DNA from: Phycisphaerales bacterium | GTDB lineage: Bacteria; Planctomycetota; Phycisphaerae; Phycisphaerales; SM1A02 | Length of the DNA stretch: 43,428 bases | NCBI GenBank assembly: GCA_022446885.1 | Contig: JAKVBU010000020.1 | Location: 17,221-60,648, forward strand | Direction of reading: 5' to 3' | Shown: positions 29,071-37,502 of the stretch, piece after piece | Position numbering within the stretch: the first letter of the stretch is position 1 | How the letters are laid out: every line of letters starts with the position of its first letter | Notes under the pieces: model-generated | Databases searched by the model: none | What the model saw: the letters and a program-made list of their open reading frames with translations, nothing else | Told to the model about the DNA's origin: nothing | Translations under genes and position numbers: made by a program

Positions 29071-29144
29071 GCCCCGGTAGCTCAGTTGGACAGAGCACGG
29101 CTTTCCTAAAGCTGAGGTCGCAGGTTCGAGCCCTGCCCGGGGTG
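29071..29144 (+). tRNA. tRNA-Arg (anticodon CCT)
   Basis: A full cloverleaf is seen: acceptor GCCCCGG with CCGGGGT (a G-U at the first pair), D arm GCTC/GAGC, anticodon stem CGGCT/AGCTG with loop TTCCTAA, T arm GCAGG TTCGAGC CCTGC. The anticodon CCT reads the AGG codon. The discriminator is G and the 3' CCA is not encoded, so it must be added. The length is 74 nt. Confidence 0.95.
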
Positions 29145-31703: not shown

Positions 31704-33275
31704 TCAATCGTCGAGCACATAGCCCGCCGCAAGTGCCTCATAGGACGCTGTTTGAGCGGCGCACCAAGCCTCATCACGCCCGAGCTCGGCCGCAATGAGA
31801 TCGGCCACCTGCCGTGCACATCGAGCCGACGCATGGGCATCCAGCAGCAGCGCCCGCATGCGGCGAGCAAGCACATCCTCGACAGTACGAGCGTGCTCAT
31901 GCCGCACAGCATGCACGACCAGCCCACGCGGATAGGGCAGGCCCTCATCGAGCAGCTCGTTCCCACGCTCCACTTCAGCGCAGATGGCCTCCACTTCATC
32001 CAGATCGGTGCCATAGAAGTGACGCCAGTCGTCTAGACGAGCGGTCGAGTCTTCCACTGCCATCCAGCCTCGCAGCTTGAGATCGGCTGTGACGCAAGGG
32101 CGATGATCGAGTGCCGCCACGTCGATGGCGTGATCGATCGTGTCCATCGCCATCTTGCGATAGGTGGTCCACTTCCCCCCCACCACCGTCACAAGCCCGG
32201 ATGGATCGACGATCACCTCGTGCTCGCGTGAGATCTTCTTGGTCTGCGTACCGGGCTTTCGCACCAACGGTCGCAATCCGGCAAACACGCTGAGTACATC
32301 ACCTCGCCCCGGATCGCGGTCGAGGTAGCGAGCAGCGTTGCGCAGAATGAACTCGACTTCTTCATCTGTAGCCCGTGGTTCAAGACACGGCTCGGGGGCA
32401 TGGGCATCAGTTGTGCCCACCAGACAACGCCCGTGCCAGGGGATCACGAACAAGATCCGCCCATCGTCGGTGTGAGGCACCATGATCGCTGTATCGCCAC
32501 GAAGGAAGGACGCATCGAGCACCAGATGCACGCCCCGGCTGGGCTCGACGATCGACTCCACCGCATCGTCATCCATGCGCCGGATGTCATTTGAAAACAC
32601 ACCGGTCGCATTGACCACCGCCGAGGCCGACACCTGAACCTCTTGGCCCGTCTCTTCATCACGGAAGGTCAAACCACACACATGGCCGTCAGCATCATGC
32701 GTCAGGCCTGTGACAGTGGCATGATTGAGTACAGCAGCGCCGTGATCCTGAGCCGTACGCATGAGCGTGACGCACATACGGGCATCATCGAATTGCCCAT
32801 CGTGATACTCCACGCCCCCGTCGAGGCCGCTGGGCTCAAGATTGGGAATCGCCTCAAGCGTCTTGTCATGGCCCAAAATCCTCGATGGCGCCAGGTTCAA
32901 TCGCCCAGCCAGCAAGTCATAGAGCTTCAGACCGATGCCGTAGAAGGGCCCCTCCCACCACTTGTACCGGGGCACGATGAACGCCAGATTGCGAACCAAG
33001 TGCGGGGCATTGGCGGCCATGATGCCACGCTCATGCAGCGCCTCACGCACCAGCGAGATGTTGCCCTGCTGCAGATAACGAACGCCTCCGTGCACCAACT
33101 TGGTCGATCGGGAACTCGTGGCCTTGGCCCAGTCCACCTGCTCCAGCAGCAGCGTTCGGCAGCCTCTGGATGCGGCATCGACAGCGCAGCCCAAGCCCGT
33201 GGCCCCACCCCCGATGATCACGATGTCCCAAGGCTCACCGGATGATGCCGCAGCCAGATGATTCTCTCGTCGCAT
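31704..33275 (-). CDS. glpD: Aerobic glycerol-3-phosphate dehydrogenase
   Basis: A 523-residue FAD enzyme. The dinucleotide motif IVIIGGGATGLGCAVDAASRG is near the N-terminus. The GlpD-specific block ATSSRSTKLVHGGVRYLQQG is followed later by GVFSNDIRRMDDD, LVGTTDAH and SVFAGLRPLV. The C-terminal helical domain carries EARCARQVADL-like patterns (ASARCARQVADLIAAELG). It oxidises glycerol-3-phosphate to dihydroxyacetone phosphate, passing electrons to quinone at the membrane. The ATG at 33275 overlaps the glpK stop (TGATG), so the two are translationally coupled. Length and motif order are as expected for the family. Confidence 0.95.
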   Translation of the reverse strand: MRRENHLAAASSGEPWDIVIIGGGATGLGCAVDAASRGCRTLLLEQVDWAKATSSRSTKLVHGGVRYLQQGNISLVREALHERGIMAANAPHLVRNLAFIVPRYKWWEGPFYGIGLKLYDLLAGRLNLAPSRILGHDKTLEAIPNLEPSGLDGGVEYHDGQFDDARMCVTLMRTAQDHGAAVLNHATVTGLTHDADGHVCGLTFRDEETGQEVQVSASAVVNATGVFSNDIRRMDDDAVESIVEPSRGVHLVLDASFLRGDTAIMVPHTDDGRILFVIPWHGRCLVGTTDAHAPEPCLEPRATDEEVEFILRNAARYLDRDPGRGDVLSVFAGLRPLVRKPGTQTKKISREHEVIVDPSGLVTVVGGKWTTYRKMAMDTIDHAIDVAALDHRPCVTADLKLRGWMAVEDSTARLDDWRHFYGTDLDEVEAICAEVERGNELLDEGLPYPRGLVVHAVRHEHARTVEDVLARRMRALLLDAHASARCARQVADLIAAELGRDEAWCAAQTASYEALAAGYVLDD

Positions 33276-34759
33276 CAGTCTTCCTCCAACGTCCGAGCCC
33301 TGTGCACAGCCCGCCTCCAACGCTTCAGCGCAGTATCCACCCGCTCACGATCTTGAGCAGGTTCGAACTCGTGCTCGATACTGACATGTTGCCCAATGTC
33401 CGCCGGGCTGTCGAACACACCCGCCGCAATCGCAGCCGCAGAGGCTGCCCCGAACGCGGTCGTCTCAAGCATGGCCGGGCGAAACACCTTCGTACCGAGC
33501 ACATCGGCCTGCATCTGCATGAGCAGATCACTGGCCGAAGCGCCGCCATCAACACGAAGCCCTCTCCGCTCGATGCCCGCGTCGGCCTCCATCGCCTCAA
33601 GCAAGTCATGCACGCTGCAAGCCACGCCCTCCAAGGCCGCTCGAGCGATGTGAGCATCCGTCGTGCCCCGAGTCATTCCCAACAAGGCACCGCGGGCGCC
33701 GGAGTTCCAGTGCGGCGCCCCAAGACCCACGAAAGCAGGCACCAAAACGACACCGCCGGTGTCAGGCACGCTTGCGGCCAGTTCATTTACGGCCTGAGCA
33801 GAGTCGATGATGCCCAGACCATCACGCAGCCACTGCACCGTCGCCCCACCCATGAAGACGCTTCCCTCCAGCGCGTAGCACACCTGCCCCTGAGCAGCCT
33901 GCCAGGCCACCGTGGTCAGCAGTCCGTTTTGAGAGTGCACAATCTTCTCGCCCGTGTTGAGCAGCAGAAAGCACCCGGTGCCGTAGGTCGTCTTGGCCTG
34001 CCCACCCTGCACAGCCCCTTGCCCCAGCAGCGCCGCTTGCTGATCACCAATCATGCCCCTGATCGCGATGCCCTCAAGGCCCTCGACGCTCGCTGTTGCG
34101 ATGTCGCCCCAGCAGGGCACGACCTGCGGGAGCATCGCAGCTGGAACACCGAATCGCTCCAAGAGTGTCTCATCCCAAGCCATCTGCTCGATGTTGAAAA
34201 GCAGGGTCCGCGACGCATTGCTGGCGTCAGTCGCATGCACGCCTCCCCCTGTCAAGCAGAACAGCAGCCAGCACTCAATCGTGCCCATGGCTAACTGCCC
34301 GGCCTCGGCCGCAGCCCTCGCGCCGGGCACATGCTCAAGCAGCCAATGCAACTTCGAAGCTGAAAAGTAGGGATCCGCCCGTAGACCCGTGCGGGCATTC
34401 AGGTCAGTTTCGTCCTGCCCAATCCTCGCCATGAAGTCCGCAGTACGCCGGTCCTGCCAGACGATCGCCCGGTGGATGGGCTCGCCCGTAGCGCGGTCCC
34501 AAATGACTACCGTCTCCCGCTGATTCGTAATGCCGAGGCCGGCGACGTCTGCGGCCACGATGCCCGCCTGGGCAATGGCCTGCCGGGCCACATCAAACTG
34601 CCGGTCACGAATCTCAATCGCGTCGTGCTCCACCCAGCCAGGCTGAGGAAAATGCTGCTCGATGGGCTGCTGGGCCAACCCGCAAATGCGGGCGTTTTCG
34701 TCAAACACGATGGCCCGGCAACTGGTCGTACCCTCATCAAGCGCAAGCAGATAGGCCAT
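33275..34759 (-). CDS. glpK: Glycerol kinase
   Basis: A 494-residue FGGY-family kinase, normal length for GlpK. The N-terminal phosphate-1 motif reads [12 protein letters not shown] (usual DQGTTSSR), followed by [14 protein letters not shown] and the block [20 protein letters not shown]. Later come [23 protein letters not shown] and [14 protein letters not shown], all typical of glycerol kinases. It phosphorylates glycerol in the cytoplasm and feeds the product to GlpD. The start at 34759 has GGGAGG at proper spacing. No glycerol facilitator (glpF) is seen beside it. The Cys in place of Ser in the first motif is a minor oddity. Confidence 0.95.
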
Positions 34760-34826
34760 CGGCACCTCCCTGAGGCCATGCTGGCATGAACCCGCCTCAA
34801 CTGGCAAGCGACACGATCATGGGACT

Positions 34827-34845
34827 GACTTTTTTCGAAAAAGTC
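34827..34845. promoter_or_regulatory. A/T-rich inverted repeat upstream of glpK
   Basis: GACTTTTTTCGAAAAAGTC, an 8-bp inverted repeat with a TCG centre, lies 68-86 bp upstream of the glpK start in otherwise GC-rich DNA. It could be an operator for the glpKD operon. No repressor gene is adjacent. Confidence 0.4.
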
Positions 34846-34942
34846 GCAACGGCATGTCCTGGCGACACTTGCATGCACGTCGCCTTGTTCAACGAGGCTG
34901 CGAGAGCCTGTCTGTCAACGCGCCAAAGATCATGCTTCTAGC

Positions 34943-35153
34943 GGAGTTGGAACTTTATCCACCGACCCAACAAGCCCACCTGCGCTACCCGCGCACAACC
35001 CCAAAAGGTCCCAATAAGTTTGCATGTGGAGGAACGGGACGGCCGATAGGGCTGGTTGAGCGGACAGCGGATTGAGGCCGACTCCACTCCCCAAACAGAC
35101 TTCCTTCTCTTCTCTTCCGCCACCTCCAGTCCATCGGGCTGGAGGTGGTTTGT
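34943..35153 (+). ncRNA. Candidate structured RNA ending in an intrinsic terminator (possibly 6S-like)
   Basis: No protein gene fits 34760-35456. On the forward strand, GGAGTTGG (34943-34950) pairs with CCGACTCC (35078-35085). Inside it, ATCC/GGAT, CCG/CGG, CAAC/GTTG and AGCCC/GGGCT (34973-34977 with 35049-35053) stack as an interrupted rod. A small hairpin TGCGC/GCGCA and GTCCC/GGGAC lie at the tip. A forward terminator follows at 35120-35153, with no forward gene upstream to need it. The rod with internal loops recalls 6S RNA, but no diagnostic sequence was recognised and no clear promoter is seen. The remaining gap (35160-35440) shows nothing I can interpret. Confidence 0.4.
35120..35153 (+). 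terminator. Strong forward intrinsic terminator
   Basis: CCACCTCCAG (35120-35129), a 9-nt loop and CTGGAGGTGG (35139-35148) form a perfect 10-bp stem followed by TTTGTT. The reverse side has no T run, so it ends a forward transcript. It lies about 300 bp upstream of the FkbM gene. Confidence 0.8.
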
Positions 35154-35441
35154 TACAGGGGCTACAACTGCTGAAGCTTGCCCTTGCCCACGACCTACCC
35201 ATGAGCCTCGAGCTCCATCGCAGACAAACTTGAGGCGCCCTTGGAAGTCGACTCACCAAGCACAACGCTTGCGCTCCCTGCCCCAGTCAACACATGCTCA
35301 CCAACTCGCCTCGACCCACACCCCAGACTGTTGGAGAAGCGCACATTTGATCAAGGCAACTGCACGACCTTTTTGATGAACTGAGACCGCTGCTCCATGC
35401 CTCACGGCTTGGGGCTCTTCAGTCACCGCCTGACGGCTGGA

Positions 35442-35447
35442 TACACT
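35442..35447 (+). promoter_or_regulatory. -10 element TACACT placed for a leaderless FkbM-family mRNA
   Basis: TACACT ends exactly 9 nt before the ATG at 35457, with no Shine-Dalgarno in the gap, as at 9460 and 16781. Confidence 0.5.
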
Positions 35448-35456
35448 TCCCCGACC

Positions 35457-36218
35457 ATGTCACTACGACAGTCCCTACGGCTGACCCATCGCGCCTGGCG
35501 ATACCGCTTGGGTTCAAATCGCGCTGAAGTTGCCTTCGTACGCCGTAGCCTTTCACGAGGCGATCTGGCTGTCGATCTGGGCGCCCACAAGGGTGCATTC
35601 CTGTATTGGCTACGAGCCTCGGTGGGTGCTCAGGGTTGTGTGCACGGATTCGAACCGCAACCCACGCTTGCCGACAGGCTCACCAGCATCGCACGCGTGC
35701 GGCGGTGGTCGAACCTGCATGTACACCAGTTGGCCGTTGCCCGCGAGGCGGGAACACTACGGCTGGGCGTTCCGGGTGGAGGCACGTCCCCGGGCGCCAG
35801 ATTGCTGGACCCAAGCGCACCTGACGCTTCATTTGGCGACGTGCATGAAGTGAAGGTGGTCACGCTTGACGAGCACTTCGCTGATCGCAAGTCGCCGGTG
35901 AAGTTCATCAAGTGCGATGTTGAGGGCGCTGAACTGGCTGCCTTTCAGGGCGGAGAGCAACTGCTTCGAACAGATCTGCCGAACTTGCTCTTTGAGTGCG
36001 AACAGCGGCACCTGCAGCAGCACACCATGAGTGATGTCTTCGACTGGCTTCAGCAGTTGGGTTACGAAGGCCAGTTCTTCCAAGGCGGAAGACTGTGGCC
36101 GCTGGAAGCGTTCTCAGCAGATGAGCACCAACGGCTTGATCGCCCTGGCGGGTTCAACCACCCTGACTACTGCAACAACTTCGCATTCATCGCACCGTCC
36201 CGACCTGGTGCGTCCTGA
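35457..36218 (+). CDS. FkbM-family SAM-dependent methyltransferase
   Basis: A 253-residue protein. The SAM-binding motif DLAVDLGAHKGAFLYWL, then CVHGFEPQPTLADRL (acidic strand end), then FIKCDVEGAELAAFQGGEQLL are the ordered landmarks of FkbM methyltransferases. Such enzymes O-methylate sugars, polyketides or other small molecules, and the acceptor is unknown. The ATG at 35457 fits both the -10 spacing and the start of a basic N-terminal helix (LRLTHRAWRYRLG); an upstream in-frame start at 35397 would add 20 residues without a better signal. It is a single gene, convergent with the COQ4-like gene. Confidence 0.85.
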   Translation: MSLRQSLRLTHRAWRYRLGSNRAEVAFVRRSLSRGDLAVDLGAHKGAFLYWLRASVGAQGCVHGFEPQPTLADRLTSIARVRRWSNLHVHQLAVAREAGTLRLGVPGGGTSPGARLLDPSAPDASFGDVHEVKVVTLDEHFADRKSPVKFIKCDVEGAELAAFQGGEQLLRTDLPNLLFECEQRHLQQHTMSDVFDWLQQLGYEGQFFQGGRLWPLEAFSADEHQRLDRPGGFNHPDYCNNFAFIAPSRPGAS

Positions 36219-36324
36219 ACAGCAGTTGGATCGCAGTTATTCCCTGCAGGGTGATCACCGGTAGCCTCTGGGCCAAGTGACTGAGACGAGCCCAGCGCCG
36301 GCAGGGCAGCCCGATGATCTCGAC

Positions 36325-36342
36325 TGAACATCCAAATGTTCA
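36325..36342. repeat. Inverted repeat between convergent genes
   Basis: TGAACAT, CCAA loop, ATGTTCA is a perfect 7-bp inverted repeat in the gap between the FkbM gene and the COQ4-like gene. No T run follows on either side, so it is at most a weak terminator or a protein site. Confidence 0.3.
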
Positions 36343-36416
36343 AATCCGCAGGCGTCTTGGCCTGTCGCCACCGGAGCGTTGCACGACTCTGGAACAGACT
36401 GGTTCCTATGCTGCGA

Positions 36417-37502
36417 TCAGGAAGCCAGATCTTCTTCGACGTTCTTCCCCGCCAACAACTTCTGGAACCAACTCATCTTCATGTCGATCATGTCAGGGCT
36501 GCTGCGCTGCCCCACCACACCCATCTCACCACACCAGCGATCGCCCGGCCCCTTGATGATCGCACCCTCCTCCTCGATGCCCATCTGGGCCCGGACATCC
36601 GCCAGCGGTTGTTGCATGTAGGGCTCGAAGTCGAAGCCGAACACCTCGAAGTTCGTCGTGGCCCTGGCTCCACGCTCGAAGGCCCGAATCACCACGTCCG
36701 GATTGAACTGGTGCAGCCACACTTCAAGCCCCTTGTCAAATTGAATGCCAATCTGGAACTGCGCCACAGCCCCGATCACGGCCTTGCCCAGATCGAGATC
36801 CATCATGCCGTCGGCAAAGGCCACGACGCAGGTCTCACCAAGTGGCGTCGTGGGGTATCCACCAAGCACATGGTGCATGTCATGAATGGTGAGGTTGTTG
36901 GAAAAGAATGCCCCTTTGGTACCCGGTAATGGGAAGTGATTGTCTCGGTAGTACTCGCTCAGCACCTTTCCAAATGTGCCTTCAGGCAGATCACAATAGC
37001 CCTGATACCGAGCGAGCATCTTCTTATCGCCGTCAACGTGCAGCAGGTTCTTCAGAATCGCACCCGGCAGCTGATGGATCTTTTTCCCACTCTCCATGAG
37101 CGCCGGGCGCAATTGACAGATGCTGATCTCTGTGACCGACCCATGGCACAGCTTGTACAACTCGCGGGCAAATTTGCGATTGAACCCGAAGGCGGAATTG
37201 AGTTGCTCAAAGGTGGCGACTCGGGTCTCTTTGTCTTCGTCTTCAAGGAAGGGCAGGATGCCGGCCATGTTCAAGACTTCACGTCTCAGCGTTTCATCGG
37301 CGACTGCATCGGCTGCTCCGTCAAGCGTGCCCGGGAGACCATCGATGTCCACCTCGACGTGAAACAGGTGATCTGCAAACGCCTGCAATGTGGCCCGGTG
37401 AATCTCATGCAGCTGAAGTTGGCCATCTGCCGTGGCAACACATTTGAGCAGGGACAAAGCCGCCTGGGCCTCATCGCCGGACACTTGCAGAATTCGCTTC
37501 AT
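36417..37502 (-). CDS. COQ4-like protein with an N-terminal TerB-like helical domain
   Basis: A 361-residue protein. The C-terminal half carries the metal motif of COQ4 proteins in full: His207-Asp208-x2-His211 followed by 11 residues and Glu223 (TIHDMHHVLGGYPTTPLGE). Upstream are YYRDNHFPLPG and LARYQGYCDLPEGTFGKVL, also of COQ4 type. Residues 10-130 are helical with LLKCVATADGQLQLHEI, which looks like a TerB-type domain. COQ4 proteins act in ubiquinone biosynthesis (ring decarboxylation-hydroxylation), but the extra domain and no nearby ubi genes make the role here uncertain. A GGGAG lies before the ATG. Codon use and composition match the neighbours. Confidence 0.68.
   Translation of the reverse strand: MKRILQVSGDEAQAALSLLKCVATADGQLQLHEIHRATLQAFADHLFHVEVDIDGLPGTLDGAADAVADETLRREVLNMAGILPFLEDEDKETRVATFEQLNSAFGFNRKFARELYKLCHGSVTEISICQLRPALMESGKKIHQLPGAILKNLLHVDGDKKMLARYQGYCDLPEGTFGKVLSEYYRDNHFPLPGTKGAFFSNNLTIHDMHHVLGGYPTTPLGETCVVAFADGMMDLDLGKAVIGAVAQFQIGIQFDKGLEVWLHQFNPDVVIRAFERGARATTNFEVFGFDFEPYMQQPLADVRAQMGIEEEGAIIKGPGDRWCGEMGVVGQRSSPDMIDMKMSWFQKLLAGKNVEEDLAS

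Follow-up and report, generated by a model that had tools for sequence, protein, structure and literature searches.

A predicted C/U-rich small RNA in a family of Phycisphaerales and its complements at PEP-CTERM-like start regions

The window analyzed here is a 43,428-nt stretch from the genome of an uncultured Phycisphaerales bacterium (G000 in our set; contig JAKVBU010000020.1). On its reverse strand it carries glpK, encoding glycerol kinase, at 33275-34759 (open reading frame 33275-34807 with a likely ATG at 34759; Pfam FGGY_N and FGGY_C). Pointing away from glpK, on the forward strand, is a predicted small RNA of ~100 nt at ~35054-35154, the 5' end of which is inferred and the 3' end of which is given by a terminator. 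Judging from the sequence, this unit probably comprises a variable 5' part, a C/U-rich stretch, and the terminator. The C/U-rich stretch, CAGACTTCCTTCTCTTCTCTTCC (35096-35118, forward strand), has complements at the start regions of PEP-CTERM-like genes, and we refer to it as the seed; its core is TTCTCTTCTCTTCC (35105-35118, forward strand). A forward-strand terminator hairpin (35120-35148) and T tail (TTTGTT, 35149-35154) follow, and the T tail is T-rich in relatives as well.

The terminator stem consists of 10 perfect base pairs, CCACCTCCAG (35120-35129) with CTGGAGGTGG (35139-35148), and inner pairs lengthen it to 13 bp (35120-35132 with 35136-35148). The initial annotation had noted this perfect stem and its T tail, and the terminator it proposed is borne out here. 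A terminator pattern scan was limited to loops of 8 nt, so the 10-bp stem, with its loop of 9, was absent from the output, and an overlapping 5-pair version (35131-35148) was returned; as the scan found four terminator-like sites in 3 kb versus 2.4 expected, it is by itself no proof of a terminator. The terminator is instead established by the conservation of its pairs. All 10 are kept in both congeners (G001 and G002), and across 26 relatives 335 of 338 stem cells are paired, which none of 500 shuffles equaled. Covariation in related genomes had been named as a check on the RNA, and compensatory changes are indeed present in the terminator stem of these 26 relatives: both partners vary in 10 of the 13 pairs, a level matched in 7 of 500 shuffles, and a covariation score of 0.627 was reached by none of the 500. 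In its count of pair types the stem does not exceed shuffles (413 of 500). Because 27 of the stem cells are G-U and would be C-A on the other strand, the orientation of the RNA is fixed as forward.

This orientation bears on whether the element is a separate RNA at all, or a leader or terminator element belonging to the glpK operon region or to the next forward gene. In favor of such an element, a divergent glpK adjoins the RNA in 19 of 20 loci of genera g1, g5, g8, g35, and g61. The G-U cells and the T tail, however, orient the RNA away from glpK, and the RNA ends in its terminator ~240 nt before the next forward open reading frame. Moreover, glpK is absent near all 10 loci of g19 and g57 (within at most 1.5 kb on each side, some contigs being shorter) and from the flanks of the RNA in G002 (L046), the sole exception among the 20. 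We consider it very improbable that the element is such an appendage of a neighboring gene, and any link of the RNA to glycerol use would be an inferred one. The initial prediction, made from the window alone, that a separate RNA gene lies on the forward strand upstream of glpK is well supported by conservation.

The remainder of the initial annotation fared less well. The 140 nt before the terminator had been drawn as a long interrupted rod closed by an 8-bp helix, with 6S RNA as one option. The helix is present as letters (GGAGTTGG at 34943-34950 with CCGACTCC at 35078-35085, including one G-U pair), but it is not kept in the congeners, in which six (G001) and five (G002) of the eight pairs remain. 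The surrounding region (34930-35100) folds no better than shuffled sequences (z = -0.83; 43 of 200 shuffles equaled or exceeded its stability), and we therefore do not retain the rod. As a conserved promoter-like element lies inside the rod at 35041-35049, most of the rod is probably outside the transcript, and the gene, at ~35054-35154, is shorter than first proposed. A 6S identity had been put forward for testing by a model search. Rfam 15 at gathering thresholds matched only a tRNA (29071-29144) in the whole window; at E <= 10, the region 34780-35400 gave only two noise matches, both to animal lncRNA models. The 6S model (RF00013) did not reach its gathering score: its highest-scoring match genome-wide is at another site and has 19.2 bits versus a cut-off of 46.4. 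What is conserved is a C/U stretch followed by the terminator, a pattern that already contradicts 6S RNA, and together with the Rfam negatives and the unconserved rod it leaves this identity with virtually no probability; we do not adopt it.

The element at 35041-35049 (GGCCGATAG, forward strand) contains a conserved CCGATA that precedes the seed in six of the seven genera (g1, g5, g8, g35, g61, and g19) and was not seen in g57; its distance to the seed is ~45-105 nt. We treat it as a candidate -10 element of the sRNA promoter, and it is from this assignment that the RNA is predicted to start near 35054. Upstream of it, a block identical in G000, G001, and G002 (GTCCCAATAAGTTT, 35008-35021, forward strand) may be a further promoter or regulator site. 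A 3-kb scan (33500-36500) found no sigma-70 consensus promoter. We also considered a sigma-28-like reading of CCGATAA and did not adopt it, as the spacing, assessed by eye, fits g8 and does not fit g1, g35, g61, or g19. Six of seven aligned g19 rows also hold a CCGATAAAAAC stretch ~190 nt ahead of the seed; the seventh row ends within the stretch. The part of the sRNA between CCGATA and the seed differs among genera. With the terminator included, 35054-35151 folds with a z of -2.15, and the folds of five examples carrying this seed (hereafter seed A) and a terminator all beat shuffles, with z from -2.15 to -6.56. In single-sequence folds the seed is free in two of these five examples and partly paired in the other three (G000, G178, and G020).

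We then turn to the distribution of the RNA. In a BLASTN search of 60 relatives with 34780-35450, five showed 35092-35154 conserved at 85-97%. A covariance model built from six sequences (R1) matched this 3' module in 34 of 181 genomes of the family at E < 1e-6, with one strong match per genome; we refer to these genomes, which belong to g1, g5, g8, g19, g35, g57, and g61, as carriers. The seed core is invariant in 33 of the 34, although R1 and a second model, R2, both contain the seed and so favor loci that keep it, such that some selection for the seed is built into this count. The one carrier with an altered core, G088 (L118, L291), has a single changed base (TTCTCTTCTCTTAC) and an intact terminator. 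Among 400 genomes drawn from the order, R2 matched at E < 1e-11 in the source family only; weaker matches (1.8e-6 and worse) occurred in the source family and two others, and 19 such cases were inspected and not counted as members. A scan for TTCTCTTCTCTTCCRYCAYC in named GTDB contigs turned up 43 stretches; R2 gave 65.9 bits or more for all 29 from Planctomycetota/Phycisphaerae records and at most 33.0 bits, or no score, for the 14 from other groups. As far as tested, strong matches thus lie in one Phycisphaerales family, in a group represented here largely by metagenome-assembled genomes. The RNA shares with trans-acting sRNA genes a stand-alone locus with its own intrinsic terminator, conserved across species.

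Candidate partners of the seed were sought with its complement. In G000, an 18-nt complement with up to three mismatches occurs in five places: the sRNA itself, the start regions of three PEP-CTERM-like genes (C2, C47, and C18), and a position lying opposite a 308-codon open frame. The C2 start region could form 18 consecutive pairs with the seed. With 19 nt and up to three mismatches, the 34 carriers hold 34 sites outside the sRNA, eight of which are at PEP-CTERM-like start regions in g1, g8, and g61, with the G183 site overlapping the start codon; 34 hand-picked non-carriers hold 24 sites, none of them at PEP-CTERM-like genes. Other carrier sites are inside frames or at unrelated genes, such as an rpmC-like gene in G086 and a VOC-like gene in G090 (both named by eye). 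Exact 14-mer complements outside the sRNA number seven in carriers and three in the other 147 genomes, and only three of the seven are at PEP-CTERM-like genes. A further probable PEP-CTERM-like site lies at a contig edge in G167 (L141, G167:C7); this gene start is nearly identical to that in G000 (L017, G000:C2) although the genera differ, and given this strong similarity it could reflect contamination of the metagenome-assembled genome. The motif reads almost identically in reverse, which makes the reversed pattern unfit as a control; its counts, which were close to those of the pattern itself, were not used, and genomes without an R1 match served as controls instead.

The target class is a loose one, called by a signal-peptide start together with a C-terminal P.P/arginine tail. 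Genes were gathered with PF07589, mostly below its curated cut-off (rows to E <= 10 in G000 and to E <= 0.05 in other genomes); the cut-off is passed by 2 of the 17 G000 rows and, across nine other carriers, by 28 of 89. Genes were kept if the tail was accompanied by either a signal-peptide-like start or a strong Shine-Dalgarno sequence. None of the three G000 target candidates passes an NCBIfam PEP-CTERM model: C2, the best-matched gene, has neither a PF07589 row nor an NCBIfam match, C47 scores under the NCBIfam cut-off, and the model that C18 passes is the one for GlyGly-CTERM.

We compared the predicted duplex energy of the seed with that of shuffled seeds. Same-composition shuffles fit the start regions of carrier PEP-CTERM-like genes worse than the seed does (mean z = -0.80, n = 97). 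The corresponding value was +0.60 for other carrier open reading frames (n = 261; p = 6e-15 versus carrier PEP-CTERM-like genes) and +0.12 for PEP-CTERM-like genes of non-carriers (n = 24; p = 0.003). When loci found through the motif were excluded, carrier PEP-CTERM-like genes (-0.64, n = 91) still differed from other carrier frames (+0.65, n = 216; p = 2e-13) and from the non-carrier genes (+0.12, n = 24; p = 0.007); within non-carriers, PEP-CTERM-like genes versus other open reading frames gave p = 0.07. A core motif of the seed complement (GAGAAGA or GAAGAGAA), itself chosen from the seed, is present in 23 of the 93 PEP-CTERM-like genes from carriers, or in 22 of 91 without two genes found by the motif (L017, found by motif and not by PF07589, and L144, found both ways). 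It occurs in 2 of 261 other carrier frames and 2 of 35 PEP-CTERM-like genes of non-carriers. Shared ancestry among genes makes the gene-level p values too low. Counted per protein cluster, the motif is found in 10 of 31 carrier clusters, 2 of 28 non-carrier clusters, and none of 14 clusters in genera g34 and g54, and pooling these counts (10 of 31 versus 2 of 42) gives p = 0.002. A test in which no motif was chosen gave a consistent picture: of 2295 7-mers, the five most enriched are all in the seed complement, and this holds without the two motif-found genes (2264 7-mers). Gene starts were set either by the signal peptide or by Shine-Dalgarno strength, and the 7-mer test compares sets obtained under both rules; 3 truncated carrier rows, 8 of 42 non-carrier rows, and 2 of 41 rows from g34 and g54 were left out. 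Taken by sequence, the conserved seed is thus complementary to several predicted mRNAs near the ribosome-binding site.

The weak model matches in g34 and g54 proved to be similarly laid-out RNAs with a different C/U-rich seed, GTCATCTCTTTCTCCTCCTG (seed B), and a conserved 5' part (L301-L308 without L304, and L310). A seed-B RNA adjoins a glycosyl hydrolase family 2 gene in G158 and a sulfatase gene in G035, as assigned by Pfam, and the one seed-B example folded was no better than shuffles (z = -0.40). The preferred start-region sequence appears to shift with the seed. In the PEP-CTERM-like genes of g34 and g54, 28 of which passed the filters out of 39 loci, the genera's own seed fits better (z = -1.21) than seed A (-0.15), while in the 93 genes of seed-A genomes seed A (-1.04) fits better than seed B (-0.33). 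The difference between groups has p = 3e-6, a value to be interpreted cautiously in that the genes are not independent and the homology of the two RNAs is unproven; non-carriers also lean slightly to seed B (-0.52 versus -0.06). The seed-A core motif is absent from all 28 of these genes. The most enriched of 788 7-mers in g34 and g54 is AGAGATG, which includes the start codon and is in the seed-B complement; the next most enriched is not in that complement. At the start codon, AGAGATG is found in 7 of 28 g34/g54 genes, 3 of 93 seed-A genes, and none of 35 non-carrier genes.

These patterns lead us to favor, as the probable reading, a new family of trans-acting sRNAs that would lower the translation of a subset of PEP-CTERM-like genes. 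Under this model, ~35054-35154 would encode a trans-acting sRNA that is divergent from glpK in most genera; once expressed, its C/U-rich seed would pair with the purine-rich start regions, comprising the ribosome-binding sites, of some PEP-CTERM-like genes. Such pairing would most likely block ribosome access and so lower translation, repression rather than activation being the expected outcome, and the targets would be PEP-CTERM-like proteins, substrates of exosortase-type surface sorting.

One may postulate an alternative in which the conserved sRNA has another main partner, such as a CsrA- or Hfq-like protein or another RNA, and the fit to PEP-CTERM-like genes reflects only the purine-rich Shine-Dalgarno sequences of strongly expressed genes. 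The absence of the core motif from 70 of the 93 PEP-CTERM-like genes in carriers would be in keeping with this, as would the two motif-bearing PEP-CTERM-like genes of G033, a genome without a model match, and the target-like sites at unrelated genes. A separate purine-rich element in g35 could also supply a partner of this kind. This conserved noncoding element lies between polA and a gamma-glutamyltranspeptidase gene in L100, L101, and L102 (G036:C56, G169:C58, and G165:C212; genes assigned by Pfam for L100) and holds GGAAGAGAAGAGAAGGTTG, a 16-nt complement of the seed, along with more GGA-rich blocks and a terminator-like hairpin. By BLAST it is found in three g35 genomes only, with short partial matches in three others, and a diverged version is seen in L143 (G168:C21). 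Purine richness alone, however, does not readily explain why same-composition shuffles of the seed fit less well, why the fit is weaker in PEP-CTERM-like genes of non-carriers, or why the preferred start-region sequence appears to shift with the seed. We therefore regard a different main partner as rather unlikely, and a small RNA acting on PEP-CTERM-like start regions as the better account. The polA element of g35 could possibly be a sponge or a CsrB-like RNA. A broader scenario, which we offer tentatively and with somewhat less than even confidence, is that the seed co-evolves with a start-region code of exosortase (PEP-CTERM-like) substrates, such that the sRNA would set part of the surface proteome by sorting class, with the g35 polA element as a possible sponge.

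As predicted from its sequence, the RNA is a new family of a known kind of regulator, the trans-acting base-pairing sRNA, and the simplest account of its action would be repression by pairing akin to that of LhrC and NmsR. In Listeria, C/U-rich motifs of LhrC bind the mRNA of a sortase-anchored adhesin and impede its translation, and LhrC resembles the present RNA in its C/U-rich motif, in having a surface-protein mRNA as its partner (a candidate one here), and in the predicted pairing over the Shine-Dalgarno sequence (PMC4132741). LhrC differs in having five copies, three redundant C/U motifs, and dependence on LisRK, and in belonging to another phylum (PMC4132741); the Phycisphaerales RNA has one long near-invariant seed, one strong match per genome, and exosortase-substrate-like candidate targets. 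NmsRA and NmsRB of Neisseria meningitidis are described as lowering translation of several mRNAs through a conserved UC-rich anti-Shine-Dalgarno region, which is fully conserved, single-stranded, and pairs around the Shine-Dalgarno sequence (PMC5362039). They differ in that TCA-cycle genes are among their targets and in having two siblings, two anti-Shine-Dalgarno regions, and three stem-loops (PMC5362039). Sequence comparison with NmsRA and NmsRB was by the Rfam scan only; otherwise they were compared by description.

A shared upstream signal on many PEP-CTERM genes of one lineage has a parallel in the PrsK/PrsR sigma-54 system, in which these genes are reported to share an upstream DNA motif in Proteobacteria only (PMC1569441). 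That system is one of DNA-level sigma-54 control, whereas the signal in Phycisphaerales is presumably at the RNA level and lies at start regions. That paper leaves open how PEP-CTERM genes are regulated outside Proteobacteria (PMC1569441); if our reading is true, an RNA regulator would supply part of the explanation. Such a regulator would also give a role to an sRNA where few are catalogued: one survey gives 8 distinct Rfam-derived sRNAs for the whole PVC group versus 345 for Proteobacteria (PMC9029176). Among the matches listed in searches of the open-licence literature on PEP-CTERM/exosortase, Planctomycetes sRNAs, and 6S RNA in Phycisphaerae, no such RNA appears. C/U stretches directly before strong terminators are also seen in L316 (G173:C147), L318 (G167:C90), and L304, L311, and L313 (family f6), and from their sequences these are perhaps related or parallel sRNAs.
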